Source of the DNA: Kiritimatiellia bacterium
Lineage (GTDB): Bacteria; Verrucomicrobiota; Kiritimatiellia; RFP12; UBA1067
NCBI GenBank assembly: GCA_017520845.1
Contig: JAFXEU010000109.1
Location: 1 to 38,337 of the forward strand
Direction of reading: 5' to 3'
DNA: 38,337 nucleotides
The position numbers and the translations under genes are program-made. The number at the start of each line of letters is the position of its first letter. Positions within the stretch are counted from its first letter, which is position 1. Below, in pieces: positions 19,562 to 38,337 of the stretch. The notes beneath the pieces were generated by a model. The model saw only the letters and a program-made list of their open reading frames with translations. It did not search any database and was not told the origin of the DNA.

Positions 19562-19572
19562 GAGTTATATAA

Positions 19573-20238
19573 ATGAGAAAAGTTTTAAAGTGTATTCTTT
19601 TGGTTGTTTTTGTTTCCGTCGTTTATAATGCGTCCGCGCAGGCCAGCCTTGCTGTAAGTGATATGTCTACGGCCCTGTGTAGTAAATGTGGTGAAAGGGT
19701 ATCGGAAGGTAAATTCTGTGAAAATTGCGGAGAAAATCTTACAATATCAGAATCTCCCAAAGAATCTCAATCTCCAAAGGAATCCTCAATAGGGTACTAT
19801 TCAAATAAGGTTTATTTGTTAAAATTGTCTCTTGGAGATTCGACAACCGCTAAAGATGATATGTGTATTTTTGGAAAAAAAGATTCGAATATTTACGGAT
19901 TAGATTTAACGCTTTTTCTTTCGCGCAATCATCGTTTATATGGTGTAGGATTTGCATTGGGTTCAGATGTTAGTGAAAAAATGGGAGGAATTCAAGTTGG
20001 AGGTTTGGGAAATAAGACAGGAGAGGTGTATGGTTTTCAAATTGGCGGTTTGTTTAATGGGGCAAGAGAGGTGTATGGTTTTCAAATTGGCGGCTTATTT
20101 AATCAAACTGAAACGGTGTTTCGAGGACTTCAAATAGGATTATTTAATGACGCGCCCAAGGATTCTAAGGGTTTTCAATTTGGTTTGTTTAATAATATTG
20201 GTAATAGGTTAATGCCCATTTTTAATATGAACTTTTAA
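19573..20238 (+). CDS. Exported protein with zinc ribbon and G-QIG-L-N repeats
   Basis: 221-aa protein with a signal peptide (MRKVLKCILLVVFVSVVYNASAQA, cleavage near ASA/QA). A CxxC-CxxC zinc-ribbon motif follows (CSKCGERVSEGKFCENCG, about 36-53). The C-terminal half has at least four short beta repeats of the form GFQIGGLFN or GLQIGLFN, as in the LA_2272-type surface repeat family first named from Leptospira. A cytoplasmic-type zinc ribbon on an exported protein is odd. It starts 11 bp after the 1212-aa kinase and 43 bp before the next kinase, so it is likely cotranscribed. A protein with the same repeat (34815) also sits near a kinase. Function unknown. Confidence 0.7.
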   Translation: MRKVLKCILLVVFVSVVYNASAQASLAVSDMSTALCSKCGERVSEGKFCENCGENLTISESPKESQSPKESSIGYYSNKVYLLKLSLGDSTTAKDDMCIFGKKDSNIYGLDLTLFLSRNHRLYGVGFALGSDVSEKMGGIQVGGLGNKTGEVYGFQIGGLFNGAREVYGFQIGGLFNQTETVFRGLQIGLFNDAPKDSKGFQFGLFNNIGNRLMPIFNMNF

Positions 20239-20281
20239 TATTATTATGGTCTGTAGGCTGAGATAAAAGAATATCAATATA

Positions 20282-24957: not shown

Positions 24958-25247
24958 ACGAGAATTCATTGAACAATGCGGTGACGATGGCGGGGAGGGC
25001 GAGCGTCCTCGCGAGCCATGTTCAGGATTCATGCTCTATCGCCTCCTCCGTCATGGCGGGCCTTGCGAAAAAGCCCGAGGATCGTCCGAAAAGCTGTGTC
25101 GCGGTGCTGGAAGGAATTTATGCGAAGAAGGAAGAGGTAGAAGAAAAGAGCGAAAAAGGAGAGCTCGGGAGAGAAGATAAGAAAGATGGTGGCGTGCCTG
25201 CTTCTGGCAATAAGCGGGTGTCTTCGCGATCTGTTGTTATTCTTTAG
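24954..25247 (+). pseudogene. Kinase remnant: N-terminal motif joined to kinase C-terminus
   Basis: 97-aa reading frame. The N-terminus MNENSLNNAVTMAG matches the start of the kinases, and SIASSVMAGLAKKPEDRPKSC (shown as two parts: SIASSVMAGLA, KKPEDRPKSC) matches the very end of the kinase domain of the gene at 29543. The whole catalytic core, about 230 residues, is absent. The junction is exactly a copy of the 25-bp module (24993-25017). The tail is charged and unlike anything else here. It could still make a small protein, as the ATG overlaps the ATPase stop and TTGGAGG lies upstream, but it cannot be an active kinase. Confidence 0.7.
24993..25017 (+). repeat. 25-bp module at the kinase remnant junction
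   Basis: GGGAGGGCGAGCG followed by TCCTCGCGAGCC. It separates the N-terminal motif from the kinase C-terminal fragment. Confidence 0.75.
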
Positions 25248-25316
25248 AGAGAGGTGGAAAGAGATAATTCATATTAGACGTAAACAAATATAAACAAAAA
25301 ATACTAAACGAGGCGA

Positions 25317-25345
25317 TTGACAAGAAAAATTAAAAGTGATAAAAT
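25317..25345 (+). promoter_or_regulatory. Promoter of the ESCRT-like operon
   Basis: TTGACA (25317-25322), 17-bp spacer, TAAAAT (25340-25345), 35 nt before the first ATG. The surrounding 130 bp are AT-rich and contain no gene. Confidence 0.75.
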
Positions 25346-25380
25346 AACATCATCAGAATTCAATTAAAAAGGTAGATGTT

Positions 25381-25719
25381 ATGGCTAATGAAATTGAATA
25401 TATGAGTCTTGAAGAGGTCGCCGATATGCTCGGCGTCACGTATCAGCTTATTTACAGACTGGTTCGGGCCGGTGAATTGCCCGCTGTCCGTCTCGGTAAA
25501 CTTTATCGCGTTTCCCGCGCTGATCTTGATGCGTATCTGGAATCGAATAAAAACGCGACCGCTCAGGGCGGCGTATGCAGCGTGTGCGGTACAACATACA
25601 AGACGCGCGATTCTCTTAAGCAGACATGCACAGAGAACGAGTGTGAAGAGCCGATCTGCTTCGATTGCTGGACGCGGCTTGGAATTCGCAAATGTCCTCA
25701 ACATTCTAAAACCAAATAA
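25381..25719 (+). CDS. Excisionase-type HTH protein with Cys-rich zinc domain
   Basis: 112-aa protein. Residues 7-55 form an HTH_17/excisionase-type DNA-binding domain (SLEEVADMLGVTYQLIYRLVRAGELPAVRLG, wing LYRVSRADLDAYL). The rest is a Cys-rich zinc-binding region with CSVC (66-69), further cysteines, CFDC and CPQH. It is the first gene of the operon, so it may be its regulator or a DNA- or protein-binding adaptor; HTH_17 domains are not always repressors. It is followed after 17 bp by the SPFH gene. Start ATG follows AAAAAGGTAG. Confidence 0.8.
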   Translation: MANEIEYMSLEEVADMLGVTYQLIYRLVRAGELPAVRLGKLYRVSRADLDAYLESNKNATAQGGVCSVCGTTYKTRDSLKQTCTENECEEPICFDCWTRLGIRKCPQHSKTK

Positions 25720-25736
25720 TATTAAGGAGGGTTAAG

Positions 25737-27335
25737 ATGGGTATTTTCTTTGATGAGTGCAGCGTTTGTCATAATAAGGTTCGAAAGACGGCCCGTTTCT
25801 GCAATCATTGCGGAACGGCGGCGCCGGGCGGATGGTGGAAGTGCCCGTCGTGCAAAAAATGGATCGGTAATGATTCTCAGTACTGCCCCCATTGTAATAC
25901 GCCGCTTTATCCCGAGCAGCGAGCCGATCTTGCGGGCGGCATCTGGCAGAAAGAACATACCCGTTTCGCCGAGCGTTTTGAAGTCGGCGACGTGAAGCGT
26001 ATTTTAGTCGACGGTCTTCAGATTCAAGAGGGTACTGTTGCGATACTGCTTGACGCCGGCAGTGTAGGTGATATTCTTTCTGCGGGCCGTCATGCTCCTG
26101 ACGGCGTCTTACGGAAAATCAACTGGTTCGGCAATCCTCCTCCGCGCAGCGTTGTTATGATTGATGCGGGTGAAATCGCCGTTCCTGTTTCGGTCGAGGG
26201 GCTTCGTACGGCGGACCCGTTCCCGATTGAATTTTACGGCGAGGTTATCGTACGCTTCAAAGGAGATAAAGATGCGGCAAGAGCGTTCATCTCCAATTTC
26301 ATGAAAGAGAACCGTACTTTAGAATACGCCGATATTTCAAACAGGATTCAGCCGCACGTGATGACCGCATTGAGCGATATGTGCGCGACAACGACGCTTG
26401 AGGACCTTGTGCGCGATCCGGAACGCCGCATTCGCCTTCATGAGCGCATGACGACGGAGCTTAAGTCGGAGTTTGAAGCCTGCGGCATAAAAGTCGTTCG
26501 CGTTTCGTCCGCCGAATTTACGGGCGATGAATATGAGGATTTTATTGAGAAGCGTTCTGAACTTGATATTGAGCGCCGCGCTATCGAGTATCGCACCGAG
26601 CTTCGCAAAATGACAGATCAGGAATCCATGTCTCAATATAAGGATATGGACGCTCTTCGTCAGTACAAGGAGACGATCGATCACGAGTATCGCGTTTCCG
26701 ACGAGACGCGCAAGCGCGAGTTTGAGCTTTTAAAGCGCGAGTGGGAGCATGACGATATCCGCCATAATTATCTTCTTGAGCTCGAAGCTCAGGAGCATAA
26801 GCACGCTGTTGAAAAGAACGAAACCGATCATAAGATTTTAATCAACAGGCTTGAAGCCGAGGCCAGATGGTGGGAGCAGGTGGGAGACGCCGAGACTGCC
26901 GCCAAGGTCCGTGAAATCGCCTCTCGGCAGCAGATTAAGGAAGAAACGGATTGGCTTGAAGTCAAGCGTCTTAAGCAGGACCTTGAAATGCAGCGCAAGG
27001 CGAAGTCGGCTGAAATCATAAAATCGATGACCTTCGAGCAGATGCTGGCGTTTGAAGACGACCCTGAAAAACGCGAAGACCTGATTAAGCTTCACCACAT
27101 GCAGCTCCAGTCCAAGATGTCGGCCCAGCAGATTCTGGCGACATTGGGTAAGAGCGATCATAACGACGAATATGTCGCGAAGATGGCTGAGTTGTACCGT
27201 GAGACCGCCGATCGCGCCGACAAGAATTTCTCGCGGATCGTCGATCCTCTGCGCGTGGGCGTAGGCGGCAATATTTTCAGAGACGATCGCAATACCGCAT
27301 ACGAAAATAAGAATCAGCCCAATTTCAGACCGTGA
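25737..27335 (+). CDS. SPFH/Band 7 protein with N-terminal double zinc ribbon
   Basis: 532-aa protein. Two zinc ribbons open it: C8-x2-C11, C22-x2-C25 and C36-x2-C39, C50-x2-C53. An SPFH (stomatin/prohibitin) domain follows (about 75-290; GTVAILLDAGSVGDIL, IDAGEIAVPVSVEGLRTADP, FYGEVIVRF, CGIKVVRVSSAEF). Residues about 290-470 are a long charged coiled coil. It resembles the zinc-ribbon SPFH proteins that accompany PspA homologues in Bacillus (YdjI type), which organise membrane domains and recruit PspA. There is no clear TM segment, so peripheral membrane binding is likely. Strong AAGGAGG before the ATG. The stop overlaps the next gene by 4 bp. Family assignment is good; its role here is inference. 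Confidence 0.8.
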   Translation: MGIFFDECSVCHNKVRKTARFCNHCGTAAPGGWWKCPSCKKWIGNDSQYCPHCNTPLYPEQRADLAGGIWQKEHTRFAERFEVGDVKRILVDGLQIQEGTVAILLDAGSVGDILSAGRHAPDGVLRKINWFGNPPPRSVVMIDAGEIAVPVSVEGLRTADPFPIEFYGEVIVRFKGDKDAARAFISNFMKENRTLEYADISNRIQPHVMTALSDMCATTTLEDLVRDPERRIRLHERMTTELKSEFEACGIKVVRVSSAEFTGDEYEDFIEKRSELDIERRAIEYRTELRKMTDQESMSQYKDMDALRQYKETIDHEYRVSDETRKREFELLKREWEHDDIRHNYLLELEAQEHKHAVEKNETDHKILINRLEAEARWWEQVGDAETAAKVREIASRQQIKEETDWLEVKRLKQDLEMQRKAKSAEIIKSMTFEQMLAFEDDPEKREDLIKLHHMQLQSKMSAQQILATLGKSDHNDEYVAKMAELYRETADRADKNFSRIVDPLRVGVGGNIFRDDRNTAYENKNQPNFRP

Positions 27336-28927
27336 AGATAACTTGCTCCAGTTGTGGACGGAAGGTGCCTGAAGGCGGTTTCTGTGAGCGTTGCGGCAGT
27401 CCTTTGTCGAAGGAGGGCGCGCCGGTGGATGTTGCGGGCATACCTGAACGGGCGGCGCAGGTTTATCCTCCGCGCGACGCGTACGAATCCGCTCCGACCG
27501 TCCAGGCGCAAAGGGCTCCGATTTTTACTCCTCCCGCGTCTGCAGTACCGTTCCGTCCGCAGTCTCCGTCCGCGCCGGTTCAGCCGCAGTCGTATGCGGC
27601 GTCATTCCCCGGGCAGCAGTATGCCTCGCCGTATCAGCCAGAACCGCCTGCTATGGCGCGGCAGCAGGCGTATGCGCCGTACGAGCCGATGACTCCGGCG
27701 CCGTCGGCATTTGACGACTCGCAGCCTGGTCTGGAAGTAGATATGCTTTGCGTCCTTTTCGAGAGGTTGCCGGGGTTGATGCGCTTTAATTTCAATCCGC
27801 GAAATTCACGCGACGGGCTTCAGAATATCCGTTTTCTCTTCGAAAATCAGCTTACTGGAGAGCGTGTCGTAACCCGGCCGATTCGCCATCTTAATCGCCC
27901 CGTCCAGATTCCGGTTTCTTTCCCCGCTCAGGAAGCGGGCGCTCTTGCGTGGAACGTTACGGTCGAATACGAGTGCCGTGCCCGTCGCCGTGTTCTGGAA
28001 GGGGCTGTACAGATGGTGGTTGTTCATCCTAAGGAGCCTCAACGCGCCGCCGAGAATCTTGCAATCAATATAACCAACACCATCAACAACGGCAATGCGT
28101 CCGACGTTCACGTTTCGCAACGCGCGCTTGAAGATCTCGTAAAACTTTCCCAGTCTGAAAATCCGTCGGACGAGTTAAGGCGTATTGTCTCCGGCGGCGC
28201 GCGGGCCTGGTCTACGGTCGAGCTGTTCGACGCGGACGAACTGGAACTTTTCCCGCCGATGCCTCCTGAGGCCCGTACCGATCGCGTTACGCTCGATCTC
28301 GGCGTTCATCGGGTTACTTTTTTTGCTGGACGGACGGTTACGTTCGGACGTATGCATGAACTTAACGATATCGTTTTACGTCCTCCGTCCGACGCGTCTG
28401 AAGATGAGAGCATACCGTATCGCAAGATAAGCCGTGCCCATTGTCATTTTGAACACAGGGGGGAAACGGTGGTGATTTGCGACGGAAGCCGCGATCAGAA
28501 CCGTATCGTCAAGCCTTCAATGGGCGGAACATACTGGAACGACCGGTGTATTTCCGGTTTCGTAAAACTTTCCCAGGGCGAGAGCGGTGTCGTTTCGTTT
28601 GCCGGCCCATGCAGCACGGGTGCCATTTCGATGAATGTAACGGCTTGTGCGCCCTCATCGGATTGCAGAAACTGTCCTTATGTGAATAAGACATGGTGCG
28701 GAGACGGAGCCCGACCTTCGCTTATGCTGAAGCGTCGCGACGGATTTCCCGAGATGTTCGTCGCCGTGTGGAGCTGCTTCTCTCTCGAAAACGCGGATCC
28801 TTCGCTGAAGGGCGTTGTGATATTCCGCAAGGACGGCGGTTTCGCCTGGCGAAAGGGCCGCAGGTGCGGCTGGATAGTTCCGGGTACGAAACAGCATACG
28901 GATTTTGGTGTTGTCACAGTAAGTTAA
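27332..28927 (+). CDS. Zinc-ribbon protein with FHA (phosphothreonine-binding) domain
   Basis: 531-aa protein starting at GTG 27332, overlapping the SPFH stop (GTGA). An N-terminal zinc ribbon (C5, C8, C18, C21) is followed by a Pro/Gln/Ala/Tyr-rich linker, a beta-rich middle domain (about 130-250), and an FHA domain (about 320-410). FHA landmarks are FGR with R340, SRAH (S367-H370) and GGTYWND, matching the phosphothreonine-binding residues. A C-terminal domain contains several cysteines (CAPSSDCRNCPY). FHA domains read Thr-phosphorylated partners of PknB-type kinases, and two such kinases are in this operon, so it is a likely phospho-dependent scaffold. Partners are not shown by the sequence. 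Confidence 0.82.
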   Translation: MKITCSSCGRKVPEGGFCERCGSPLSKEGAPVDVAGIPERAAQVYPPRDAYESAPTVQAQRAPIFTPPASAVPFRPQSPSAPVQPQSYAASFPGQQYASPYQPEPPAMARQQAYAPYEPMTPAPSAFDDSQPGLEVDMLCVLFERLPGLMRFNFNPRNSRDGLQNIRFLFENQLTGERVVTRPIRHLNRPVQIPVSFPAQEAGALAWNVTVEYECRARRRVLEGAVQMVVVHPKEPQRAAENLAINITNTINNGNASDVHVSQRALEDLVKLSQSENPSDELRRIVSGGARAWSTVELFDADELELFPPMPPEARTDRVTLDLGVHRVTFFAGRTVTFGRMHELNDIVLRPPSDASEDESIPYRKISRAHCHFEHRGETVVICDGSRDQNRIVKPSMGGTYWNDRCISGFVKLSQGESGVVSFAGPCSTGAISMNVTACAPSSDCRNCPYVNKTWCGDGARPSLMLKRRDGFPEMFVAVWSCFSLENADPSLKGVVIFRKDGGFAWRKGRRCGWIVPGTKQHTDFGVVTVS

Positions 28928-28937
28928 GGAGGTAAAA

Positions 28938-29519
28938 ATGGGATTCCTTTTTTTCAAGACCGCTAAGGAAAAAGAACGCGCTGAACGTCGCGAGAGACGT
29001 CACGCTCTCCGCAAAGCCGAGGGAGCCGTCGATGAAGTGACCGAGCGCATCAGGAAAATGGAAAAAGACGCCGAGGCCGAGTGGGCGCGCGCCAAGGACG
29101 CCGCCAAGGAAGGTAAGCAGGCGGCTGCTCAGCGTGCGCTTACGAGCTACAGATCGGCTCAGGTGCTTATTACTAAGCTCGAACAGAAGAAGTGGGTTTT
29201 CAAGCAGGTTCTGATGAAGCTCGAAACGGCGGGGACCGATGCCGAGTTCGCCAAGGCGCTCGGGATGATGAACAAGGTTACGAACATAAATCCCGAGTTG
29301 GTCGAAGACGTTTTCGACGAGGCTAATGAACTTTTGGCCGAGTCCGGCGATACCGATAAACTCTGGGCTCAGATGTACAGCAAGGAGGTTGAAGGCTCCA
29401 AGGAGGCTCTTCAGGATCACATTCCTTCGATGGAAGACCTAGAGCGTACGCTCAACGAAGAGGTCGCCGGTAAGATAGCGGGCGGTGTCGACCCTTCGGC
29501 GCTTGAAAAGGAAATCTGA
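28938..29519 (+). CDS. ESCRT-III (CHMP/Snf7)-like helical protein
   Basis: 193-aa, almost entirely helical, charged protein. The N-terminus MGFLFFKTAKEKERAERR resembles the hydrophobic-then-basic start of CHMP proteins (MDLLFGRRKTP in CHMP2A, from memory). The long alpha1-alpha2 hairpin spans about 20-95, with the turn-type segment AKEGKQAAAQRAL where CHMPs have AKxGxxxxA. ALGMMNKVTNINPELVEDV corresponds to the alpha3-alpha4 region, and FDEANELLAES to the following acidic helix. MEDLERTLNEEV near the C-terminus is a weak candidate MIT-interacting motif. PspA/Vipp1 are bacterial members of this superfamily, but this protein looks closer to eukaryotic and archaeal forms. AAGGAGG precedes the ATG. 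A Vps4-like ATPase lies two genes on. Fold assignment is by eye. Confidence 0.6.
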   Translation: MGFLFFKTAKEKERAERRERRHALRKAEGAVDEVTERIRKMEKDAEAEWARAKDAAKEGKQAAAQRALTSYRSAQVLITKLEQKKWVFKQVLMKLETAGTDAEFAKALGMMNKVTNINPELVEDVFDEANELLAESGDTDKLWAQMYSKEVEGSKEALQDHIPSMEDLERTLNEEVAGKIAGGVDPSALEKEI

Positions 29520-29542
29520 TTCTCAATAGGCCAGCTTACGAA

Positions 29543-31150
29543 ATGAACGGGAATACTATCAACAACGATGTGACGATGGATGGTAGGGCGAGCGTCCTCG
29601 CGAGCCGCTATCGCATTATCCGTCAGCTTGGGGCCGGCGGAATGGGTTCCGTGTGGCTCGCCGAAGATACGAAGCTCGATAACAAGCTTTTCGCGATTAA
29701 GATGCTTCCCAGTATTCTCGTTGCCAACAAGCGTGCGTACAATCAGCTGAAAGAAGAGGCGCTTTTGGCGATGAAGCTTGTTCACCCCAATATCGTTCAG
29801 ATCCGCGCGTTTGAAGAGAATGACAATAATCCGTTTCTCGTGATGGATTATATCGACGGCGAGACGCTTGATGATTGGTTAGGGAATGGGGAATTGGGAA
29901 TGGGGAAGGGGGAAGGGGATGTTGTTCACCTTTTAAAACCTATTGCCGAGGCGCTCGACTATGCGCATAGTGAAGGCGTCGTTCATCGCGATATCAAGCC
30001 CGCGAACATTATGATCCGCAAGGACGGACGTCCGTTCGTGATGGATTTCGGAATTGCCCGCGAGATTCAGGAGACTATGACCAGGATGACGGGCAAAATG
30101 TCGTCGGGGACATTGATGTATATGTCGCCGGAGCAGCTGATCGGTTCTCGGCCCGAAAAAGAGCAGGATGTTTATTCGTTCGCGGCGATGGTTTATGAAT
30201 GTTTGAAGGGAGAACCACCATTCTGCAGAGGTGATATAGAATATCAGATACTTCATATAGAGCCCGAGTCGTTGCCGAAAGATATTTCAATCGCTTCGTC
30301 CGTTATGGCGGGTCTCGCGAAGAAACCTGAAGACCGCCCTAAATCGTGTCTTGAGGTTTTGGGATCGGGTGAGTTAAGCCGTGTAGAACGTGTAGAGCGT
30401 GCAGAAGTAGAGTGTGCAGAATCTGATATAGATGTTGGCGACTCTGAGGCAGTCAATCATACGATGCACTCTTCGTTTAAGGTTGATAATCCCATTGTGC
30501 CTGATACTCCTTTGCCGAACTTAGATATTTCAAAACATAAAATCAGACGGAAGGGTCTGAAGGGATTTTGGGGAAAACTTCCACTACTAATCATTTTTAT
30601 GCTGATTGCGTTAATAGGTTGTGGTGTTTGTGTGACGTATCATCACTATTATTGGTATAAAGAGGATTTGCATTGGTTTCTTGAGCACGGTTACGACTGG
30701 ATTCATCATTTACATAGGTCAGAGGAACACTATATGCTGATGGTTCGTACACTCTGTGGTGTAGGTTTATGTATTATTGGTTTAATAGTTGTTATAATAT
30801 TCTACAGACGTATACTCCTTAGACATATACTACTTAAACGAACTCAAAAACTTTTAACGGACTTTTCTCGCGGGAATTGGAATAGCGCGATGAATGCTAA
30901 AAACGTGTATATGCGAGATTCGTTTGTGCTTTATTATTTAGGGGTCGCCAATCTCTATATTCAGCAAAATTACGCCAATGCGGAAAAACTTTTTTCCGAA
31001 TCCGCGGAATGCGGAGTTCCTGAAGCGTTAATCGGGCTTGGATGGATGGCCGAGAATGGATGGGGGAAGCCGAAGAACATGTTGCTCGCTCAGAGGCTTT
31101 ACCGCGAAGCCGAAGAACAAATGCAGAAACGCATTGAAGATAAAAAGTAA
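29543..31150 (+). CDS. Ser/Thr protein kinase with two TM segments and Sel1-like C-terminus
   Basis: 535-aa PknB-type kinase. The N-terminus has NNDVTM (7-12), followed by a 25-bp module encoding GRASVLAS. The kinase domain (about 23-275) keeps LGAGGMGSV, K53, HRDIKPAN (D150), DFG and GTLMYMSPEQ, so it should be active. A heptamer-encoded GNGELGMGKGEG loop sits at the same place as in the gene at 15923. A linker follows, then two TM segments (about 347-366 and 403-423) with a short His/Tyr-rich loop between, and a C-terminal Sel1/TPR-like region (YYLGVANLYIQQNYANAEKLF, ALIGLGWMAENGWG). It sits between the ESCRT-III-like and Vps4-like genes with 23-bp gaps on both sides and no evident Shine-Dalgarno of its own. 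It is a natural candidate to phosphorylate operon partners. Confidence 0.88.
   Translation: MNGNTINNDVTMDGRASVLASRYRIIRQLGAGGMGSVWLAEDTKLDNKLFAIKMLPSILVANKRAYNQLKEEALLAMKLVHPNIVQIRAFEENDNNPFLVMDYIDGETLDDWLGNGELGMGKGEGDVVHLLKPIAEALDYAHSEGVVHRDIKPANIMIRKDGRPFVMDFGIAREIQETMTRMTGKMSSGTLMYMSPEQLIGSRPEKEQDVYSFAAMVYECLKGEPPFCRGDIEYQILHIEPESLPKDISIASSVMAGLAKKPEDRPKSCLEVLGSGELSRVERVERAEVECAESDIDVGDSEAVNHTMHSSFKVDNPIVPDTPLPNLDISKHKIRRKGLKGFWGKLPLLIIFMLIALIGCGVCVTYHHYYWYKEDLHWFLEHGYDWIHHLHRSEEHYMLMVRTLCGVGLCIIGLIVVIIFYRRILLRHILLKRTQKLLTDFSRGNWNSAMNAKNVYMRDSFVLYYLGVANLYIQQNYANAEKLFSESAECGVPEALIGLGWMAENGWGKPKNMLLAQRLYREAEEQMQKRIEDKK
29582..29606 (+). repeat. 25-bp module at a kinase N-terminus
   Basis: GGTAGGGCGAGCG followed by TCCTCGCGAGCC, in frame between NNDVTM and the first kinase strand. 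Confidence 0.75.
29879..29919 (+). repeat. Heptamer repeats inside a second kinase domain
   Basis: TTAGGGAATGGGGAATTGGG and following AATGGGGAAGGGGG-type units, about six 7-mers, at the same kinase position as 16265-16299. Confidence 0.75.
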
Positions 31151-31173
31151 AATTTGCAGAAGAGGAATGATTT

Positions 31174-32310
31174 ATGCAATCGATGACAGATAAGAAGAAA
31201 GAGCGAGAAGCGGCATGCCAGGCGGCGGTGAACGCCCGTGATTTCGCCGTCGCCGCGAAAGCCGCCGCCGATGTTGCCGATTGCGCCGAAATTCTCGCCT
31301 CGCGCACAACGGGGGTGATCGCCGAGGCGTATTTAAAAGAGGTCGAGTCGTGGCGGGCGCTCGCGAGGAAGTTGGAGGCGCGGAAGGGAAGCGCGGCTCG
31401 CGGTTCTGGAAAACGGGGAATGGGGAACGGGGAACAGGGAACGGGGAATGGAGAACGGGGAACGGATGGCGACGAGTGGCTTGTCGGCGAGAAGCCGAAT
31501 ATTACGTTCGATGATATCGCGGGGATGGAAGACGCGAAGCGAGTCATCGACGAGATGGTTTTGTACCCGATGAAGTCGCCGGAAAAGGCGCGCGCATTGG
31601 GGCTTAATCCCGGCGGCGGCGTATTGCTTTTCGGGCCTCCCGGTACAGGTAAAACGATGCTCGGCAAGGCTATCGCCGGGGCTCTCGACGCGCCGTTTTA
31701 TTACGCGTCAGGCGCGGATCTGCGCTCTAAATGGTATGGAGAGTCGGAGCAGAGGCTTTCGCAGCTCATGAACGCCGCCAAAGCGCAAAGCGTAGCCGTA
31801 GTCTTTCTCGACGAAATCGAATCGCTTCTTCCCAAGCGGACCGAAAGCTCTCATGCCGCCGACAACCGCGTCGTCACGCAGTTTCTTTCCGATCTCGGAG
31901 GATTTAAGGATTCCGACAATCTTCTGCTCGTCTTAGGCGCCACAAATAAACCGTGGGCAATCGATGAAGCCGTGTTCCGTACTGGCCGCTTTGACGAAAA
32001 GGTTTATATCGGGCCGCCCGATAAGGCGGCGCGTATGAAGATTCTCGAGCTTAATCTTAAAAATGCGGCTGTCGCGGACGATGTCAATCTCGACGAGTTG
32101 GCTGAAAAGCTTGACGGATGCTCCGGGTCCGACTGCGCCGCGATAGTGTCAGCGGCGAAACGGTCGGCTCTCGGTGCCGCGATCCGCACTGATTCCGATC
32201 CTGTCATTACCGCCGATGATTTTGAAGATGCCCGTCGCCGTATCCCTTCGAGCATAACGGCCGATATTCTTGCACCTTATGAACGCTTCATGGAAGAGAG
32301 GTTTGACTGA
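31174..32310 (+). CDS. Vps4-like AAA ATPase with N-terminal MIT-like domain
   Basis: 378-aa ATPase. Residues about 1-70 form a three-helix, MIT-like bundle by pattern (AACQAAVNARDFAVAAKAA, VADCAEILA, YLKEVESWRALARKLEARK). A Gly/Asn linker encoded by heptamer repeats follows (about 78-100). The AAA domain opens with ITFDDIAGMEDAKRVIDEMV, Walker A GPPGTGKT (154-161), pore loop SKWYGESE (W187, Y188), Walker B FLDEIES (D213, E214), sensor 1 LGATNKPW and FRTGRFDEKVYI with arginine fingers. SKWxGESE and the DIAG start are typical of the Vps4/katanin/spastin clade. The C-terminal ILAPYERFMEERFD resembles the Vps4 terminal helix. Vps4 pulls ESCRT-III subunits through its pore to disassemble filaments. 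Neighbouring ESCRT-III-like genes support this role. Confidence 0.8.
   Translation: MQSMTDKKKEREAACQAAVNARDFAVAAKAAADVADCAEILASRTTGVIAEAYLKEVESWRALARKLEARKGSAARGSGKRGMGNGEQGTGNGERGTDGDEWLVGEKPNITFDDIAGMEDAKRVIDEMVLYPMKSPEKARALGLNPGGGVLLFGPPGTGKTMLGKAIAGALDAPFYYASGADLRSKWYGESEQRLSQLMNAAKAQSVAVVFLDEIESLLPKRTESSHAADNRVVTQFLSDLGGFKDSDNLLLVLGATNKPWAIDEAVFRTGRFDEKVYIGPPDKAARMKILELNLKNAAVADDVNLDELAEKLDGCSGSDCAAIVSAAKRSALGAAIRTDSDPVITADDFEDARRRIPSSITADILAPYERFMEERFD
31412..31467 (+). repeat. Heptamer repeats encoding the AAA ATPase linker
   Basis: Eight 7-mers: AACGGGG, AATGGGG, AACGGGG, AACAGGG, AACGGGG, AATGGAG, AACGGGG, AACGGAT. Three units make 21 bp, so the protein shows a 7-residue period (NGEQGTG, NGERGTD). 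Confidence 0.85.
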
Positions 32311-33272
32311 TGACCGGTAACAATATTAAATGCTGCGTGTGCGGGATTAATCTTCCGAACAAATGGGCTGTCGCAAAGAGCGAAAACGTCGACGGAGTTG
32401 AGCTTTGTTATTGCCATCTCCACGCTAATGAATCTTATGCGAAGAAATTGAAAGATAAAAACACCGAACTGGAAGTCGGTGAAAAAAAAGAACGTCAAAA
32501 CGAAGAAACTGAAACTCAAGATAGGAAGGAGAAAGGAGATTCTATGGATCAAGGTAAAGAGAAGCCGAAAGATGCGTCTGCGAAGGAGCAGGAAATAGTA
32601 AAGAACGCTTCCGGAGATCTTGTTAAAAAGGCCTGGAACGAATGCGCTTCGCTGGTAGGCAAACTGGGAGGGGGGATAAAGGCGCTTTGGTCTAAGATAA
32701 ATCCCGACCGTTCTCCCGCGGCGATGCTTGAAGTTCTCAATAAGGACCTTGCCGTTAATGCGACGCGCCTTGAAGAGATGAAGCCCCAGCTTGACCAGGT
32801 CTACAGTCAGATCGTAGCCAAGAAGAAGGAATATCAGTCCGCTGCGCCGGTGCGTCAGCGCCTCTTGAAAATCGAACTCCAGACCTTAATGGCCAGATAC
32901 AAGGGCCTTGAGCGAGAGTTTACGATCCTTTCGGAAAACGAGCGCTCCATTGAAATGGTCAAGAGCCGTTTTCTTGAGGTGCTCGCGTACGGCAAGCGCG
33001 GCAAACTCGATGTGTCGATGGTCGATCGACTTACGGATGATATCGAGGATAAGGTTGACGATGCCGAAGATATACAGGACGCGCTCGGCGATTTGGAGAA
33101 TGCCGGCAGACGCAAGGATCGCTCAAGCGACGATTTCGACTCGGAGCTTGCCGGTTTTGACGGAGAGCTCGGGCTTTCCGAAACCGACGAATTTACAGAT
33201 ACTACAACAGAAAAGGAGACACAAAATGAAGAAATTGATGATATTGTCCGCGGCGGCGACATTATTGCTTAA
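32310..33272 (+). CDS. Second ESCRT-III-like coiled-coil protein with Cys-rich N-terminus
   Basis: 320-aa protein whose ATG overlaps the ATPase stop (TGATG). Residues 1-40 hold a small Cys/His cluster (C8, C9, C11, C33, C35, H36, H38), probably zinc-binding. An acidic/basic linker follows. From about residue 130 the sequence is a long helical hairpin (LNKDLAVNATRLEEMKPQLDQ, VRQRLLKIELQTLMARYKGLE) and then LDVSMVDRLTDDIEDKVDDAEDIQDAL, which resembles the alpha4-alpha5 part of CHMP4/Snf7, and an acidic tail. A strong Shine-Dalgarno (AAAGGAG at 32533-32539) stands 5 nt before an in-frame ATG at 32544, so a 242-aa form lacking the Cys domain may be made. Superfamily assignment is by eye and could instead be PspA-like. 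Confidence 0.55.
   Translation: MTGNNIKCCVCGINLPNKWAVAKSENVDGVELCYCHLHANESYAKKLKDKNTELEVGEKKERQNEETETQDRKEKGDSMDQGKEKPKDASAKEQEIVKNASGDLVKKAWNECASLVGKLGGGIKALWSKINPDRSPAAMLEVLNKDLAVNATRLEEMKPQLDQVYSQIVAKKKEYQSAAPVRQRLLKIELQTLMARYKGLEREFTILSENERSIEMVKSRFLEVLAYGKRGKLDVSMVDRLTDDIEDKVDDAEDIQDALGDLENAGRRKDRSSDDFDSELAGFDGELGLSETDEFTDTTTEKETQNEEIDDIVRGGDIIA
32533..32546 (+). promoter_or_regulatory. Internal ribosome-binding site and in-frame ATG
   Basis: AAAGGAG followed by ATTCT and ATG (32544), in frame with the 32310 gene. It is the best ribosome-binding site in that gene; the annotated upstream ATG relies on TGATG coupling. Confidence 0.55.
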
Positions 33273-33909
33273 TACTTTCGCCGGAGAGCGCGAGTTTTCC
33301 GACGCGATAAAGGACGCTGCTGAAAAAACGGTCGCTTCAATCGCCGGCGATTCGCGCGCTTCATCCGTGAAGTCCATCGCGTTTGTCAGGTTGAACGCAC
33401 CAGATTCAAAGGGCGTTTTGCCGTTGGGCAGTAACGTTTCGCAGATTTTCGAAACCACGCTTTTGGCTAAGCCGGAGAGGTTCACGTTCGTTACCCATTC
33501 TTCCCATGTCGAGGAATGGAAACTGATAGATGAAATCTTCGATCAGGCTGAAGATTTTGAATCGTACGATCCGAAGACTCATCCCGAACTCAATAAGCTT
33601 AAGCTCGCCGATGCGCTTTTGATCGGTCAGATAATCGATGCGAAGGAAGATGAACGTAAAAACGAAACTGAATATTCGGTCCGTGTCGTGATGCGTCTTA
33701 TTAAGGTTTCGACGGGTGAACAGATCTGGGGGCAGGTCATCGACGGGCGGCATCTCGTTAAAATCGATCGTATCAACGAAATGAAAGAGGAGGCAAAATC
33801 ATATCTCACTCTTTCCAATATGCTCAAGCTTGCCGGCTATGTCGCCGGCGGTATAATCGGACTTATATTGCTTATCATTCTTCTTAGGCAGATGATTCGC
33901 GTACGCTAA
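33226..33909 (+). CDS. Exported CsgG/LpoB-like protein with C-terminal TM
   Basis: 227-aa protein. I take ATG 33226, preceded by AAAAGGAG, because it opens a signal peptide (MKKLMILSAAATLLLNTFAGE); longer in-frame starts upstream lie inside the preceding gene in another frame. It overlaps that gene by 47 bp. The middle part has the pattern of CsgG/LpoB/FlgO-type periplasmic proteins (VKSIAFVRL, ADALLIGQIID, VRVVMRLIKVSTGEQIWGQVIDG). The last 30 residues form a TM helix (YVAGGIIGLILLIILL) with a basic end. It should be anchored in a membrane with the domain in the periplasm. Role unknown; it provides an envelope component for the operon. Confidence 0.7.
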   Translation: MKKLMILSAAATLLLNTFAGEREFSDAIKDAAEKTVASIAGDSRASSVKSIAFVRLNAPDSKGVLPLGSNVSQIFETTLLAKPERFTFVTHSSHVEEWKLIDEIFDQAEDFESYDPKTHPELNKLKLADALLIGQIIDAKEDERKNETEYSVRVVMRLIKVSTGEQIWGQVIDGRHLVKIDRINEMKEEAKSYLTLSNMLKLAGYVAGGIIGLILLIILLRQMIRVR

Positions 33910-33930
33910 AAAAGAAAGGAATGTTATAGT

Positions 33931-34797
33931 ATGAAAAAAATCATCGTAATTTTAGGTGTCGGCGCGGTTGTCGCGGGATGCGTCAATACCAAATATATCG
34001 AGCCGGATCCTCAGCCTCCGCGCACGGTGGCTGAAGTAAAAAAAACGCCGAAAGCGCCAAAGCGCCAGAAGGTCGTTGTCAACAACGGCAAGAACGCGGT
34101 TAAGCCGAGTCAGGCTGAGATAAAGGGAAAGGCCACGGCCTTGGCAAAGCCGCTTCGAGTTCTCGTTTCGCTCGATGACGGACTTGATCCTCAAAAGCCC
34201 TCGACCTTGAAGCGCACGCTTTTTACCAACGTAGAAGGTAAACTGGCTTCGTCCGGATTTAAGGTTGTTTATGCCAAACCTGCCGAGATTCTCGTCTATG
34301 GATCGCTTCGCGCTCAGAAGATGAACCAGCGCGGAAGTCGTGTCTCCTGGAAGGGGGATGTGACGGTCGAGGTCACTCGCGCTCCGGAGGTCAATTCCGT
34401 CAATGGGCAGACCATGCGCGACGTTGTCGCTAAAAAACGGTTCGACGTAAAAAGCGGCGATGCCAGAAACGATGACGAGGCATTAGTTAAACTTTCCGAC
34501 CGCGTGGGTGCTGACGTGGCTGATTTTGCGGGTAAAGCCGTCAACAAGGTGGCTAAAAAAATGAAGCTTGCCGAAATAGTCGTATCAAACGCCTGGCAGC
34601 CCCAGGACGCCGCCGGTTATCCCACGCTCTTCGCCGAGCGCGTTTCACGGATGGATGGAGTCTATTCATGCCGCGTTGTCGCCACCGACAATGCAAACCG
34701 CACGATGAAGGCTGAAGTCATCTATGATTCTGAAATGTTTCCCGACGGTTTCGTAAACCGTCTTTATATCACACCTGAACTTAATATTGCGCGCTAA
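33931..34797 (+). CDS. Lipoprotein, unrecognised, possibly CsgG/LpoB-related
   Basis: 288-aa protein with a lipoprotein signal peptide (MKKIIVILGVGAVVAGC, acylated Cys 17) and a Pro/Lys-rich linker up to about residue 75. The folded part (LRVLVSLDDGL, LASSGFKVVYA, EILVYGSLRAQKM, GDVTVEVTRA) resembles periplasmic proteins that pair an alpha/beta domain with a VYGxL strand, as in LpoB/CsgG relatives, but I do not place it in a named family. The end has FAERVSRMDGVYSCRVVATDN. It follows the CsgG-like gene after 21 bp with AAAGGAATG upstream. Likely an outer- or inner-membrane lipoprotein partner of it. Confidence 0.6.
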   Translation: MKKIIVILGVGAVVAGCVNTKYIEPDPQPPRTVAEVKKTPKAPKRQKVVVNNGKNAVKPSQAEIKGKATALAKPLRVLVSLDDGLDPQKPSTLKRTLFTNVEGKLASSGFKVVYAKPAEILVYGSLRAQKMNQRGSRVSWKGDVTVEVTRAPEVNSVNGQTMRDVVAKKRFDVKSGDARNDDEALVKLSDRVGADVADFAGKAVNKVAKKMKLAEIVVSNAWQPQDAAGYPTLFAERVSRMDGVYSCRVVATDNANRTMKAEVIYDSEMFPDGFVNRLYITPELNIAR

Positions 34798-34814
34798 GAT
34801 AAGGAGAATAATCC

Positions 34815-35345
34815 ATGAAGAAAGTTTTATTTGCAGCTGTCTGCGTCTGTGCTACGCTCGGTTTTGCCCAGGCTCGTGAATTGGTTCGGCCCGGAGATGC
34901 CGGCTTGAAGCGCGAGGTTCCGCCAAAAAAACTCGTTCCCGCCTCGCCTGATCGTCCGCAGGAACCCATTGCGGTTTACAGCACGCCGTTCGCGGTAAAT
35001 TTCTGCTCGCTTTCTATTCCGTCGGCACCTCAGCTTGACGTCTACGGGATGCGTCTTAATATCACGGTTCCGTTCGCTACCCCGGATAATCTGAATGTTC
35101 TCGGGTTTGATCTCGGTCTTTCCGGAGAGGCTTTCGGGCACGTCGGCGGCGTCGCGATCAATGTTTTCGACAACGTCAGCGATTCTTTTTCGGGCGGAGC
35201 CGTAGGTCTTGTAAACGTCACCGGTGAGTTGCGCGGTGTTCAGATCGGCCTTGTTAATGTGGCCAAGACGGGTGCAGGTCTTCAGATCGGTTTGTGGAAC
35301 CATTCCGACAATTTCACTTGCCCGATTATCGGCGTTGTCTGGTAA
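34815..35345 (+). CDS. Exported protein with G-QIGL-N surface repeats
   Basis: 176-aa protein with a signal peptide (MKKVLFAAVCVCATLGFAQA). After a linker, beta-rich repeats occur: GGVAINVFDN, GGAVGLVNVTG, GVQIGLVNVAK, GLQIGLWNHSD. This is the same repeat class as the protein at 19573. It is probably periplasmic or on the cell surface. TAAGGAGAA precedes the ATG. Its presence in the operon, and that of a relative between two other kinases, points to a shared role with kinase-based systems. The function is unknown. Confidence 0.65.
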   Translation: MKKVLFAAVCVCATLGFAQARELVRPGDAGLKREVPPKKLVPASPDRPQEPIAVYSTPFAVNFCSLSIPSAPQLDVYGMRLNITVPFATPDNLNVLGFDLGLSGEAFGHVGGVAINVFDNVSDSFSGGAVGLVNVTGELRGVQIGLVNVAKTGAGLQIGLWNHSDNFTCPIIGVVW

Positions 35346-35354
35346 GGAGTCGAT

Positions 35355-36431
35355 ATGAACCGTAAAGATATTCTTAAGGCACAGCACGAAAAGAAATATT
35401 CAGAAGGAGGGTTCGGGGCGTCAACGACGCCCCGGCCTCAGGATTTTCGTCGACTTCCCGTGCGAAAAGGGATAATGGGAAAAGTTGTTCTTTTACTCAT
35501 AGTTGCTTCTTTGGCGGTTCTTTGCTGGTGGAAGCTTGACGTCATCAGGGGGTATCTAAAATCGGATACGGCAGCTGATGTGGATAATAAAAATACGCCG
35601 ACAGCGGAGATTCGAACGCCTGCCGGCGTTCGCGCATCCAACGGAACGGTTGCGCGTGAAATTACCGTTGCGGATATAAAATCGTATCTTACGCCTTCAA
35701 ATGCCGAAATTGAACAGCTTTACACTTATGTTGTAAATTCCCCTTTTTTGAAGGAGAATCTTCAATATGTCGACAGAATGAAAAGCGTCGATTTTCTTTA
35801 TGTATCGACCAACGATACGGTAAACGCGTTTGCCGGTCGCCGCGTGGTGGAGAACGACGGTAAAAAGCAGCTTGCCTTTCATACTGTAGTTTTTGGCGGA
35901 GCTGCCAGATACGCAAGACTCGTCGGTTTGGCGGCCGCGATAGAGGATGGCGGCAGCGATGGTATGCTGAAGAAATTCGTAGAAGCGATGCCCAAGAGTT
36001 TCTGCGGCAGCTGCAGTGAGGCGGAGTGTGTTAAATTCATTCAGGATAACGGTCTTGACAGAGCTTTGGCGAATGAATCCATCCGTCAAAAAGCCGTCTC
36101 TTATTCTTCTGGTACGATTGTAAGCGTTCTCGCCCATGAGACAGGTCATCACGCCCTTGGACATCTCCTGTCGGTAGCCGAAAAGCGCAATCTCGAAATA
36201 TCGCGCAATCAGGAGCGAGAGGCCGATTCCTTCGCGTCTTCGATTATCAGCACGTCGCCTTTCGGTGAATATATTTTCGCGGGAACGCTCTTTTGGCATT
36301 ATGCAATCGCCACACAGGCGGATGCCGCCAGCGACACGGCAAGCGATCATCCTCTTTCGAAGGAGCGCTTTGAGAATTTTGTCCGCGCAAATGCCGAGAA
36401 GGCGTCCGCAATGGGTATATCGATTAATTGA
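35355..36431 (+). CDS. Membrane-anchored M48-family metalloprotease
   Basis: 358-aa protein. One TM segment near residues 41-58 (VVLLLIVASLAVLCWW) follows a basic N-terminus, so the catalytic domain is likely periplasmic. The zinc site is AHETGHHALGH (H261, E262, H265), and the third ligand is E289 in NQEREADSFAS, as in M48 (HtpX/BepA/Oma1-like) peptidases. A segment FAGRRVVENDGKKQLAFHTVVFGG before the site may be a substrate-binding strand. Cys-rich CGSCSEAEC occurs about 20 residues before the active site. M48 proteases are usual in membrane and envelope quality control. The TGATG at its end couples it to the kinase gene. Confidence 0.85.
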   Translation: MNRKDILKAQHEKKYSEGGFGASTTPRPQDFRRLPVRKGIMGKVVLLLIVASLAVLCWWKLDVIRGYLKSDTAADVDNKNTPTAEIRTPAGVRASNGTVAREITVADIKSYLTPSNAEIEQLYTYVVNSPFLKENLQYVDRMKSVDFLYVSTNDTVNAFAGRRVVENDGKKQLAFHTVVFGGAARYARLVGLAAAIEDGGSDGMLKKFVEAMPKSFCGSCSEAECVKFIQDNGLDRALANESIRQKAVSYSSGTIVSVLAHETGHHALGHLLSVAEKRNLEISRNQEREADSFASSIISTSPFGEYIFAGTLFWHYAIATQADAASDTASDHPLSKERFENFVRANAEKASAMGISIN

Positions 36432-38218
36432 TGAACGAAAATACAATAAACAACGATGTGACGATGAACAATGCGGTGACGATGCGCCCTCAAGCGGTCG
36501 ACTCGCTTGGGCGTATTGACCAGTATGAACTTATCCGCGAGCTCGGCGGTGGCGGGTTCGGCTGCGTGTATTTAGCACGTGATACTGACGCCGGAATTGA
36601 GGTCGCGGTAAAGGGGCTTCCTCCGCTCGTACGTTTAAATAAGGAAGAGCTTGAGAATGTTAAAAACAATTTCGCTTTAGTTTCTCGCCTTCATCATCCT
36701 AATATCGCCGCTGCGCTGCATTTCCAAAAGGTACAAAGCGCCGTTTATAACGATGACGACGTAAAAGAGAAACTTCGCGTATTTAAAGATGATCCTCTCG
36801 TCGTGATGCAGTATGCCCGCGGCGTTACACTCTCGCAATGGCGTAAGCAGTTCCCCGAAGGTAAAGTTCCGCTAGATAAGGCTTTAGAAATCACGCGGCA
36901 AATTGCATCCGCGCTCGATTACGCGCACAAAGAGAGAATTATACATCGCGACATAAAGCCCGCTAATGTGATGATAGAGACATTGCCCGATAGAACGGTA
37001 ACGGCGCGTGTTCTTGACTTCGGGTTGGCTGCGGAAATCCGCTCTTCTATGGGGAGGCTGTCTTTAAATGTGACCGATAAATCGGGAACGCGTCATTATA
37101 TGGCGCCGGAACAGTGGAGCGGCAAGAAGCAGAGCAAAGAGACCGACCAGTATTCCTTGGCGGCATTGTTTTACGAGTTGATTTTAGGGGAAGTCCCGTT
37201 CGCATCGGTATTTGATACAGGTGATACGGTATTGATGAAAACGGTAGTGGAGAACGATTCTCCCGAAATCCCGCACTATTTGCCGAAACCTGTCCGCCTT
37301 GCGCTCGCCAAGGCATTGGCGAAAAAGCGCGAAGACCGTTTCGCGTCATGTATCGAATTTGTTGATGCGTTGCAAGGTGGGGCGGGTATCGGGAGGGTGA
37401 GCGTCCTCGCGATCCATGCCAGAGGCCTGCGAACCGCCATCTTCGCCGCCGTCGCCGCCCTCGGTCTCGCCGGTGCCGGCATCTGGTATTGGCAACAAGG
37501 ATCTTCTGAACCGGATGGGAATGCGGCTCGCGGGGACGCTCGCAGGCCTCTAGCGACTTCGCTACACGAAGCGGACTCTGTCCGGGCCATACCTCCCGTA
37601 AATGTGGCTCGCGAGGACGCTCGCCCTCCCAAAAACATCGTCCCCGCGAGCCGTGAAGATAAAGAATATACAGGTCCAAAGGATGGTGAGTGTAAAACTT
37701 TTACGCTCCCTGGCGATGTTACGATGGAGATGGTATATGTTGGTCCTGGTGAATTCATGATGGGTAGTGAAGGTGGTGATAACGACGAAAAGCCAGTTCA
37801 TTCCGTGCGAATCTCCCAAGGCTATTGGATTGGTAAATACCCGGTTACCCAAAAACAATGGAAAGCCCTGGTTAAATCCAACGATATAACCTTTGATAAT
37901 GGTCAACCTGTAGCGTGCTTCAGCTCTCACGGTAGCGGTAGTGAAATTGTGGCAGGCATTGACACGTCAGACTTTCCGATGGAAAGCATTAGTTGGGATG
38001 ATTGCAATAAGTTGGTAGCGGCGCTGAACAGAAAAGAAAAAACTTCAAGAAGATGGATGATTCCAACAGAAGCGCAATGGGAGTTTGCAGCGCGAGGTGG
38101 TAGCAAATCTAAAGGTTATAAATATTCTGGTGGCGATAATATGAGCGCTTTGGGTTGGTATTATGAGAATTCACTACCATCCCATAGGCGGGATGGCACC
38201 TTTCTTTTGTTTGAGTGA
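36431..38218 (+). CDS. Ser/Thr protein kinase with TM and truncated FGE domain
   Basis: 595-aa kinase starting at ATG 36431, which overlaps the M48 stop (TGATG); the TTG three bases upstream is less likely. The N-terminal motif occurs in tandem, NNDVTM (7-12) and NNAVTMRP (13-20). Kinase domain about 33-310: LGGGGFGCV, AVKGLPPL, HRDIKPAN (H172, D174), DFG, GTRHYMAPEQ. It is closely similar to the kinase at 20282. A TM segment (about 335-357) is followed by a palindromic repeat-encoded linker and an FGE-sulfatase domain (about 418 on; MVYVGPGEFMMGS, YWIGKYPVTQKQW, IPTEAQWEFAARG). The domain stops after ALGWYYEN with an unrelated 13-residue tail; the normal NVWEW and GFR blocks are missing. It may be disrupted by an insertion or rearrangement at about 38171. 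Confidence 0.85.
   Translation: MNENTINNDVTMNNAVTMRPQAVDSLGRIDQYELIRELGGGGFGCVYLARDTDAGIEVAVKGLPPLVRLNKEELENVKNNFALVSRLHHPNIAAALHFQKVQSAVYNDDDVKEKLRVFKDDPLVVMQYARGVTLSQWRKQFPEGKVPLDKALEITRQIASALDYAHKERIIHRDIKPANVMIETLPDRTVTARVLDFGLAAEIRSSMGRLSLNVTDKSGTRHYMAPEQWSGKKQSKETDQYSLAALFYELILGEVPFASVFDTGDTVLMKTVVENDSPEIPHYLPKPVRLALAKALAKKREDRFASCIEFVDALQGGAGIGRVSVLAIHARGLRTAIFAAVAALGLAGAGIWYWQQGSSEPDGNAARGDARRPLATSLHEADSVRAIPPVNVAREDARPPKNIVPASREDKEYTGPKDGECKTFTLPGDVTMEMVYVGPGEFMMGSEGGDNDEKPVHSVRISQGYWIGKYPVTQKQWKALVKSNDITFDNGQPVACFSSHGSGSEIVAGIDTSDFPMESISWDDCNKLVAALNRKEKTSRRWMIPTEAQWEFAARGGSKSKGYKYSGGDNMSALGWYYENSLPSHRRDGTFLLFE
37391..37415 (+). repeat. Degenerate 25-bp module after a kinase domain
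   Basis: GGGAGGGTGAGCG followed by TCCTCGCGATCC, in frame at the kinase-TM junction. Confidence 0.55.
37525..37597 (-). repeat. 73-bp palindromic repeat, copy in the third kinase gene
   Basis: In minus orientation relative to copies A and B: begins GGCTCGCGGGGACG and ends CCATACCTCCC. Inner stems CTTCG-CTACA-CGAAG and GGAC-TCT-GTCC are kept. It is translated (as ARGDARRPLATSLHEADSVR) in the periplasmic linker. Confidence 0.8.
37606..37652. repeat. 25-bp module and hairpin before the FGE domain
   Basis: GGCTCGCGAGGACG (37606-37619) faces CGTCCCCGCGAGCC (37639-37652), a 14-bp inverted repeat with one mismatch. It is at the same position relative to the FGE domain as 18397-18443. Confidence 0.7.
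38177..38196. repeat. Hairpin at the truncation point of the last kinase
   Basis: CCATCCC (38177-38183) and GGGATGG (38190-38196) with a 6-nt loop, followed by a T-rich stretch. It lies a few bases after the FGE homology ends and could be a terminator or the end hairpin of a mobile element. Confidence 0.45.
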
Positions 38219-38337
38219 ATGATATCACATCCTGACGTTTTTCGTCAACCCTGTAAATTGCGTTATTTGCAATAAATTACCCCCCCCCCCCCTAACTTTT
38301 TGACACATTATACAAAGCGCGTGTTGTTTTGGTATCA
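38219..38337. other. Non-coding end of window with C13 homopolymer
   Basis: The last 119 bases are AT-rich with no gene. They contain a small hairpin TGACG-TTTTT-CGTCA (38233-38247), a run of 13 C (38280-38292), and an isolated TTGACA at about 38300. The final GTTTTGGTATCA resembles the start of the extended -10 promoters seen elsewhere, but it is cut by the window end. Confidence 0.4.

Follow-up and report, generated by a model that had tools for sequence, protein, structure and literature searches.

A candidate bacterial ESCRT-III/Vps4-type system encoded with SPFH, FHA and kinase genes in a Kiritimatiellia genome

The DNA analysed here, referred to as the window, is a stretch of 38,337 nucleotides comprising contig JAFXEU010000109.1 of a Kiritimatiellia bacterium. 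At 25317-36431 it carries an operon that an earlier note, made from the letters alone, had put forward as a candidate bacterial system of ESCRT-III (endosomal sorting complex required for transport III) and the ATPase Vps4. This proposal was supported by a Snf7-family protein and its predicted fold, a predicted MIT domain and recurrent gene linkage, with the qualification that the AAA ATPase is Vps4-like only. We consider it likely, with a probability of about 0.75, that the operon encodes a Snf7-family ESCRT-III protein together with an AAA ATPase with a predicted MIT domain, and that the two work as ESCRT-III and Vps4 do in eukaryotes and archaea.

ESCRT homologues are placed in archaea 'but not in bacteria' in a passage of PMC10936438, and a clear Vps4 homologue is said to be lacking in bacteria in a passage of PMC7615534. 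Sections of PMC8281802 and PMC11804906 give PspA/Vipp1 as the bacterial branch of the ESCRT-III superfamily, while part of PMC7618577 names Vipp1 as an example of the ESCRT-III-like proteins of bacteria. A literature search by title or abstract start, with preprints and most subscription papers outside its scope, found no bacterial pair of Snf7 and MIT-AAA genes. To the earlier note, too, no described bacterial locus of this combination was known.

The Snf7-family protein and its partner ATPase

The features that carry the main finding are:

28938..29519, plus strand: ESCRT-III (Snf7-family) protein, by Pfam Snf7, family profile, and AlphaFold2 model with Foldseek
31174..32310, plus strand: MIT-AAA ATPase, Vps4-like, by Pfam AAA (E 6e-38), motifs and predicted MIT
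31174..31404, plus strand: predicted MIT domain, three helices at 4-20, 24-43 and 47-75, by Foldseek matches to MIT domains

By sequence, the assignment of the 28938 protein as an ESCRT-III homologue is well supported. It matched Pfam Snf7 with 29.0 bits (cut-off 27.3, E 1e-6), as did all 24 members of family alignment A3 at E <= 0.1; this alignment holds 18 of the 23 loci from a GTDB scan, five database proteins and the window copy. In a divergent member set 12 of 15 matched Snf7 at E <= 1, and the divergent-family profile A7 reached yeast SNF7 at E 6.7e-9 in an alignment of nearly full length. The AlphaFold2 model of the 28938 protein (pLDDT, the predicted local distance difference test score, 67) has helices at 9-57, 61-97, 101-115, 122-135, 139-148 and 165-181, a long alpha1-alpha2 hairpin followed by alpha3-alpha5, which is the predicted ESCRT-III layout. 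Rows 1-12 of the Foldseek list for this model were all ESCRT-III (best E 0.026), so the structural check proposed in the earlier note came down on ESCRT-III chains, not on unrelated coiled coils. BAR domains tied with ESCRT-III in the VIA structure list for the model, and identity to ESCRT-III chains was mostly 13-20% in the fold alignments. An IPSMEDLxxxLxxEVA region is conserved in the family, and 14 of the 24 A3 members have an RxxxGxxRVxxLL-type tail helix, which is absent from the window copy and its close relatives. We take these conserved C-terminal segments to resemble the MIT-interacting motif (MIM).

The translation of the 31174 protein contains Walker A GPPGTGKT, Walker B FLDE and the pore loop RSKWYGESE, in keeping with the SKWYGESE loop described earlier, and the N-terminus was predicted to be helical, as had also been claimed. 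It was predicted, more precisely, as a three-helix MIT fold with a pLDDT of 90. MIT domains occupied rows 1, 2 and 4 of the Foldseek list for it (E 0.47-1.1), and the best VIA match was the MIT domain of human VPS4A. In a tree that included three Vps4 sequences, two of them archaeal, the 31174-type AAA, Vps4 and a Chloroflexota AAA were grouped against CDC48/FtsH with support 98/95; the second AAA domains of L064 and L069 were left out of this tree, and the L065 ATPase yielded no core-profile domain for it. The proposed likeness to Vps4 rests on the predicted fold, the gene linkage described below and this tree.

Several results limit the Vps4 assignment. Pfam MIT was matched by none of 18 and none of 11 ATPase N-termini in two sets that had two N-termini in common, and Vps4_C was not among the Pfam families of the window AAA at E <= 0.1. 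In the tree the AAA family also formed a group of its own (98/93), outside the three sampled Vps4 sequences. Furthermore, hhalign of the MIT region against one archaeal MIT gave no match, and a PDB profile search with A6 gave no MIT (A4 and A6 each comprise 17 loci and the window, without the fusion and one contig-cut AAA). Profile A8 reached the VPS4B/SKD1 MIT in the PDB at E 0.21-3.8, ranked below TPR and designed repeat proteins. Since the Pfam, hhalign and A6 searches failed, the MIT assignment is clearly supported by predicted structure only, and because Vps4_C was unmatched we name the ATPase Vps4-like and do not class it as Vps4. What stood of the earlier Vps4 claim is thus the AAA motifs, the predicted MIT and the grouping with Vps4 against CDC48/FtsH, and what did not stand is a place among the sampled Vps4 sequences.

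These results also bear on an alternative that sees in the 28938 protein a coiled-coil adaptor of structural role and in the AAA a Cdc48-type unfoldase with a TPR-like N-domain, the whole serving kinase signalling or protein quality control and not membrane remodelling. The NCBIfam ranking of the 31174 AAA, with CDC48 (221 bits) ahead of CdvC (205), points in this direction, as do the GRFD motif kept in the AAA family, the absence of MIT from the Pfam results, the repeat proteins outranking VPS4B MIT with the A8 profile, and two TPR-repeat chains in the A7 list (1e-7 and 8e-5). However, we judge this alternative unlikely: the Snf7 similarity is significant and extends over nearly the full length with the divergent profile, the tree places the ATPase with Vps4, and some loci have between two and four ESCRT-III paralogues (four with two MIT-AAA genes in G298, two each in G191 and G409), which fits a filament system.

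Linkage of the two genes across genomes

A scan of 84,980 GTDB species genomes for family A2 with two short peptide patterns, a design that finds close relatives only, returned 23 loci, two of them in one metagenome-assembled genome (MAG). For 19 loci the title gives Kiritimatiellae/Kiritimatiellia, Lentisphaerae/Lentisphaeria or Verrucomicrobia; the other four are titled simply 'bacterium' or 'uncultured bacterium'. The source genomes with titles were mostly MAGs. By tblastn, an AAA gene lies on the same strand no more than 3.7 kb from the Snf7 gene in 18 of the 23 loci, one of these AAA genes being cut by the contig end. In the remaining five (L017, L019, L022, L024 and L030) the contig ends 0.1-2.6 kb downstream.

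When 387 genomes of the phylum were searched with the A3 profile, 15 matched, own genome counted, and the MIT profile A8 matched the same 15; neither the Snf7 nor the MIT-AAA gene was found alone in this sample. The two profiles are not fully independent, as each drew rows from 8 of the 15 genomes (own included); both also matched genomes outside their own rows, and none beyond the 15. Thirteen loci were taken from the A3 search, of which six were already among the GTDB loci and seven (L061-L067) were new and divergent. In all seven the MIT-like ATPase gene lies 25-91 bp from the Snf7 gene (profile coordinates). A 31174-type AAA is thus found where criterion ii of PMC10936438 places the ATPase, encoded beside ESCRT genes.

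The neighbourhood search suggested in the earlier note therefore showed that the Snf7/MIT-AAA linkage is not unique to this contig, as it recurs in MAGs of Kiritimatiellae, Lentisphaerae and Verrucomicrobia. Contamination is unlikely, given the same linkage in many MAGs and the low contamination of the own genome (0.48%, at 92% completeness). Horizontal transfer from archaea was considered as well. The G+C content of the operon (51.6%) is close to that of the window at 1-25000 (50.9%), and the archaeal Vps4 in the tree do not enclose the AAA; we therefore do not propose a recent transfer.

Operon layout and accessory genes

The remaining features of the operon and its end are:

25317..25345, plus strand: promoter-like TTGACA-17-TAAAAT, 11 of 12 consensus positions matched
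25381..25719, plus strand: excisionase-type helix-turn-helix (HTH) protein with a C-terminal zinc-binding cluster (Pfam HTH_17, 2.1e-17)
25737..27335, plus strand: SPFH/Band 7 protein with two N-terminal zinc ribbons (Pfam Band_7, 2.5e-14; DZR)
27332..28927, plus strand: zinc-ribbon and FHA protein (Pfam FHA, 6.6e-4)
29543..31150, plus strand: Ser/Thr kinase with two transmembrane (TM)-like segments and a Sel1 repeat (Pfam Pkinase, 1e-42)
32310..33272, plus strand: zinc-finger and long-helix protein, possible second ESCRT-III-like subunit (family profile)
33226..33909, plus strand: exported LpoB/CsgG-like protein (Pfam LpoB, 24.6 bits, cut-off 22.3, E 2.5e-5)
33931..34797, plus strand: lipoprotein (lipobox)
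34815..35345, plus strand: small secreted protein (signal-like N-terminus by eye)
35355..36431, plus strand: membrane-anchored M48-type metalloprotease (Pfam M48, 21.6 bits, cut-off 20.3; HETGH)
36431..38218, plus strand: second Ser/Thr kinase with a partial FGE-sulfatase domain (Pfam Pkinase, 2.2e-41)

The description of at least 11 co-directional, tightly spaced genes was borne out. Eleven genes, all on the plus strand, fill 25381-36431 in the order HTH, SPFH, FHA, 28938 helical protein, kinase, AAA, 32310 protein, LpoB-like protein, lipoprotein, small secreted protein and M48-like protease, with intergenic gaps between -47 and 23 bp (17, -4, 10, 23, 23, -1, -47, 21, 17 and 9 bp from 5' to 3'). 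The promoter-like sequence described earlier was likewise located at 25317-25345; it is the best of 16 sites in 25000-38337, where shuffled sequences gave a mean of 10.3 sites scoring at least 9. As for the Ser/Thr kinases that had been placed in 25317-36431, one lies wholly inside, while the second only overlaps the last stop codon by 1 base.

The SPFH, FHA, CsgG/lipoprotein-type and M48 genes named in the earlier note were recovered as Band_7, FHA, LpoB, lipobox and M48 matches, that to FHA lying just under the cut-off (20.5 against 20.7 bits). A TM-like segment was sought in the SPFH protein and none was found. The 29543 kinase has HRDIKPAN and DFG motifs and TM-like segments at 339-369 and 396-432, and its Sel1 match (E 2.7e-4) is below the Pfam cut-off. 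The LpoB-like protein has a signal-like N-terminus and a C-terminal TM-like segment at 198-227, the small secreted protein matched no Pfam family at E <= 0.1, and the M48-type protease has a TM-like segment at 36-65. In the second kinase the FGE-sulfatase match is limited to 4-138 of 255, and the open reading frame (ORF) terminates 119 bp short of the contig end. The domain of the 29543 kinase (at 29882-29920) and the MIT-AAA linker (at 31411-31470) contain G-rich GGGAATGGGGA-type repeats that resemble each other and add low-complexity insertions.

With partial matches included, the 23 GTDB loci contain a kinase domain in 16 cases, SPFH in 15, the 32310 family in 14, FHA in 12, HTH in 10 (one partial and one on the opposite strand), the lipoprotein in 6 and M48 in 5.

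Two long-helix proteins of CHMP-like layout had been claimed, of which the 28938 protein is supported by sequence and fold and the 32310 protein is weakly ESCRT-III-like. The 32310 family profile A5 (13 loci and the window, leaving out L026 with an unsure start and L033 with masked bases) gave CHMP4b (E 0.08) and then SNF7 (E 0.21) as its best PDB rows, and 3 of its 14 members matched Pfam Snf7 (best E 0.038). The helical half appears, by eye, to be spaced like ESCRT-III. When the profile of the 28938 family (A3) was compared with that of the 32310 family (A5), the probability was 0.8%, which is no link. The 32310 protein is a possible second ESCRT-III subunit, on these sequence matches.

The gene content and distribution also invite an alternative in which the operon serves anti-phage or inter-bacterial defence, by ESCRT-III-based membrane sealing or phospho-triggered membrane disruption. 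Its presence is patchy, at 6 of 58 near relatives and 15 of 387 genomes of the phylum (own genome counted in both), and the operon includes an excisionase-like HTH and kinases. A PADLOC scan of 10 operon proteins (all but the 34815 and 36431 products) matched a kinase, the MAD1 HTH and the IetA AAA. These matches, however, concern only widely shared kinase, HTH, AAA and peptidase domains, the full set of PADLOC components was not present, and the Snf7, SPFH, FHA and 32310 proteins had no PADLOC match at E <= 1e-5. Neither 50,697 phage records nor 72,556 plasmid records gave a tblastn match to the 28938 Snf7 protein, viral contigs contained no Snf7 relative, and no obvious effector was seen. 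A defence role therefore seems to us improbable.

Variants among related loci

Tandem MIT-AAA-AAA proteins are encoded beside ESCRT-III genes in L061 (796 aa), L063 (1006 aa) and L066 (741 aa). The C-terminal end of the L063 frame also matches the M48 profile (25 bits), a tail that would tie the M48 gene of the operon to the ATPase. Papain-like proteases are encoded near the L061 and L063 tandem ATPases.

In G002 (L015:9298-10848) a Snf7-like N-terminal half, with PSIDEMMEKL at its end, is fused to an AAA core within a single open frame, without MIT. The Snf7-like half of this fusion, P0121, scored 28.6 bits (29% match, E 2.1e-6, residues 6-108). Pfam found AAA in P0121, and Snf7 was not among the best 25 of 26 families. 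Small proteins upstream of Snf7 in L036 and L038 were tried as further Snf7 proteins and rejected, as Pfam gave no Snf7. The ATPase at L065:9894-10991 keeps a MIT-like N-terminus and has a weak AAA core match (30 bits), which by eye may be another AAA type.

At L080:1-4655, on a plasmid of Candidatus Chlorohelix allophototropha (NZ_CP128401.1), two helical genes (about 200 aa) are followed by an AAA gene and then a Ser/Thr kinase gene. The AAA has, by eye, a MIT-like N-terminus and a GATNVPW...SRFERKIYVPLPD motif; Pfam found no Snf7 in the two helical Chloroflexota proteins. This is possibly a second bacterial ESCRT-like locus, in another phylum, and suggests that ESCRT-III/Vps4-type systems extend further.

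Proposed mechanism and comparison with known systems

Most probably the operon serves to repair or remodel the cytoplasmic membrane in response to a phospho-signal. The 28938 Snf7 protein would form a polymer at the inner membrane. Docked by its MIT domain, presumably on the tail of the Snf7 protein, the ATPase would extract subunits, so that polymer and membrane are remodelled. The SPFH protein is proposed as a membrane platform that may recruit ESCRT-III, much as YdjI does for PspA; according to a passage of PMC10936438, YdjI is needed to localise PspA. The FHA protein is proposed as a phospho-reader that, with the TM kinase, could switch assembly by phosphorylation. The 32310 protein might be a second filament subunit or a capper. 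Through the exported lipoprotein and the LpoB-like and M48 proteins the machine may be coupled to the state of the envelope. Kinase control and a span across the envelope, as put forward in the earlier note, stay hypotheses. We infer polymerisation, MIT-tail binding and phospho-control from these assignments.

On balance it appears that bacteria of the Verrucomicrobiota/Kiritimatiellae/Lentisphaerae group own a complete kinase-gated ESCRT-III/Vps4-type machine, with multi-subunit filaments, MIT-AAA, MIT-AAA-AAA or ESCRT-III-fused ATPases and an SPFH platform. If this is true, Vps4-driven ESCRT-III occurs in all three domains of life, and a Snf7-type ESCRT-III locked genetically to a bacterial MIT-AAA would revise the phyletic history of ESCRT. 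Kinase control, SPFH recruitment and filament disassembly could then be studied jointly in one compact operon, and the tandem-AAA and fused forms could reveal the way in which the ATPase engages its filament.

Archaeal ESCRT systems (CdvB/CdvC of TACK; euryarchaeal Main, Halo_FHA and Meth_adaptin) likewise pair an ESCRT-III gene with a MIT-AAA gene. In the parts of PMC10936438 that describe their loci, many have extra ESCRT-III proteins, and some share with the operon a Ser/Thr kinase, FHA or zinc-ribbon SPFH: kinase and phosphatase occur in many Main-clade loci and FHA in Halo_FHA, while Meth_adaptin loci have an SPFH protein with a coiled coil and a zinc ribbon. In contrast to these, the operon is bacterial, its AAA is not nested with the two sampled archaeal Vps4, it adds the exported lipoprotein, LpoB-like and M48 genes, and the Pfam lists of its proteins contain no CdvA or adaptin-like family. 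With eukaryotic ESCRT-III (SNF7/CHMP4, CHMP3) and VPS4 it shares the Snf7 family, the predicted helical layout and MIT fold, and a SKWxGES-type pore loop, but differs in the low identity and in the missing Pfam MIT and Vps4_C matches noted above, and in having tandem-AAA and fusion forms among its relatives. With PspA/Vipp1/IM30 and YdjI it has in common the ESCRT-III superfamily fold and an SPFH partner, as portrayed in parts of PMC10936438 and PMC8281802, whereas its protein is Snf7 by Pfam and several paralogues occur in some genomes.

That the operon is an offshoot of the PspA/Vipp1-SPFH(YdjI) membrane-stress system, not a Snf7/Vps4-type ESCRT, is very improbable: an SPFH protein does adjoin an ESCRT-III superfamily protein, and the Foldseek list of the 28938 model has Vipp1 and PspA further down, the VIA list at tied Z, but PspA_IM30 was absent from the Pfam list of the 28938 protein (E <= 0.1) and was none of the 19 families that the 24 A3 members matched, its best score in the own genome was 13.3 bits (under the cut-off of 33.9), and a MIT-AAA is linked instead.

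Surroundings of the operon

Just upstream of the operon, a short ORF at 24954-25247 has the beginning of the operon kinase domain and a piece from its C-terminal part without a kinase core, and is a kinase gene remnant. A coding repeat at 24993-25016 and 29582-29605, inside kinase N-termini, reads GRASVLAS in one frame and GERPREP in others; the element is also read in other frames at 24884-25180 (plus strand) and 37047-37679 (minus strand) and resembles a dispersed repeat. Further upstream lie an AAA_14/DUF4143 ATPase gene (23755-24957) and a second kinase cluster (15923-23347) encoding a kinase-Sel1-FGE protein (1212 aa), a zinc-ribbon protein and a kinase-LysM protein (1021 aa).

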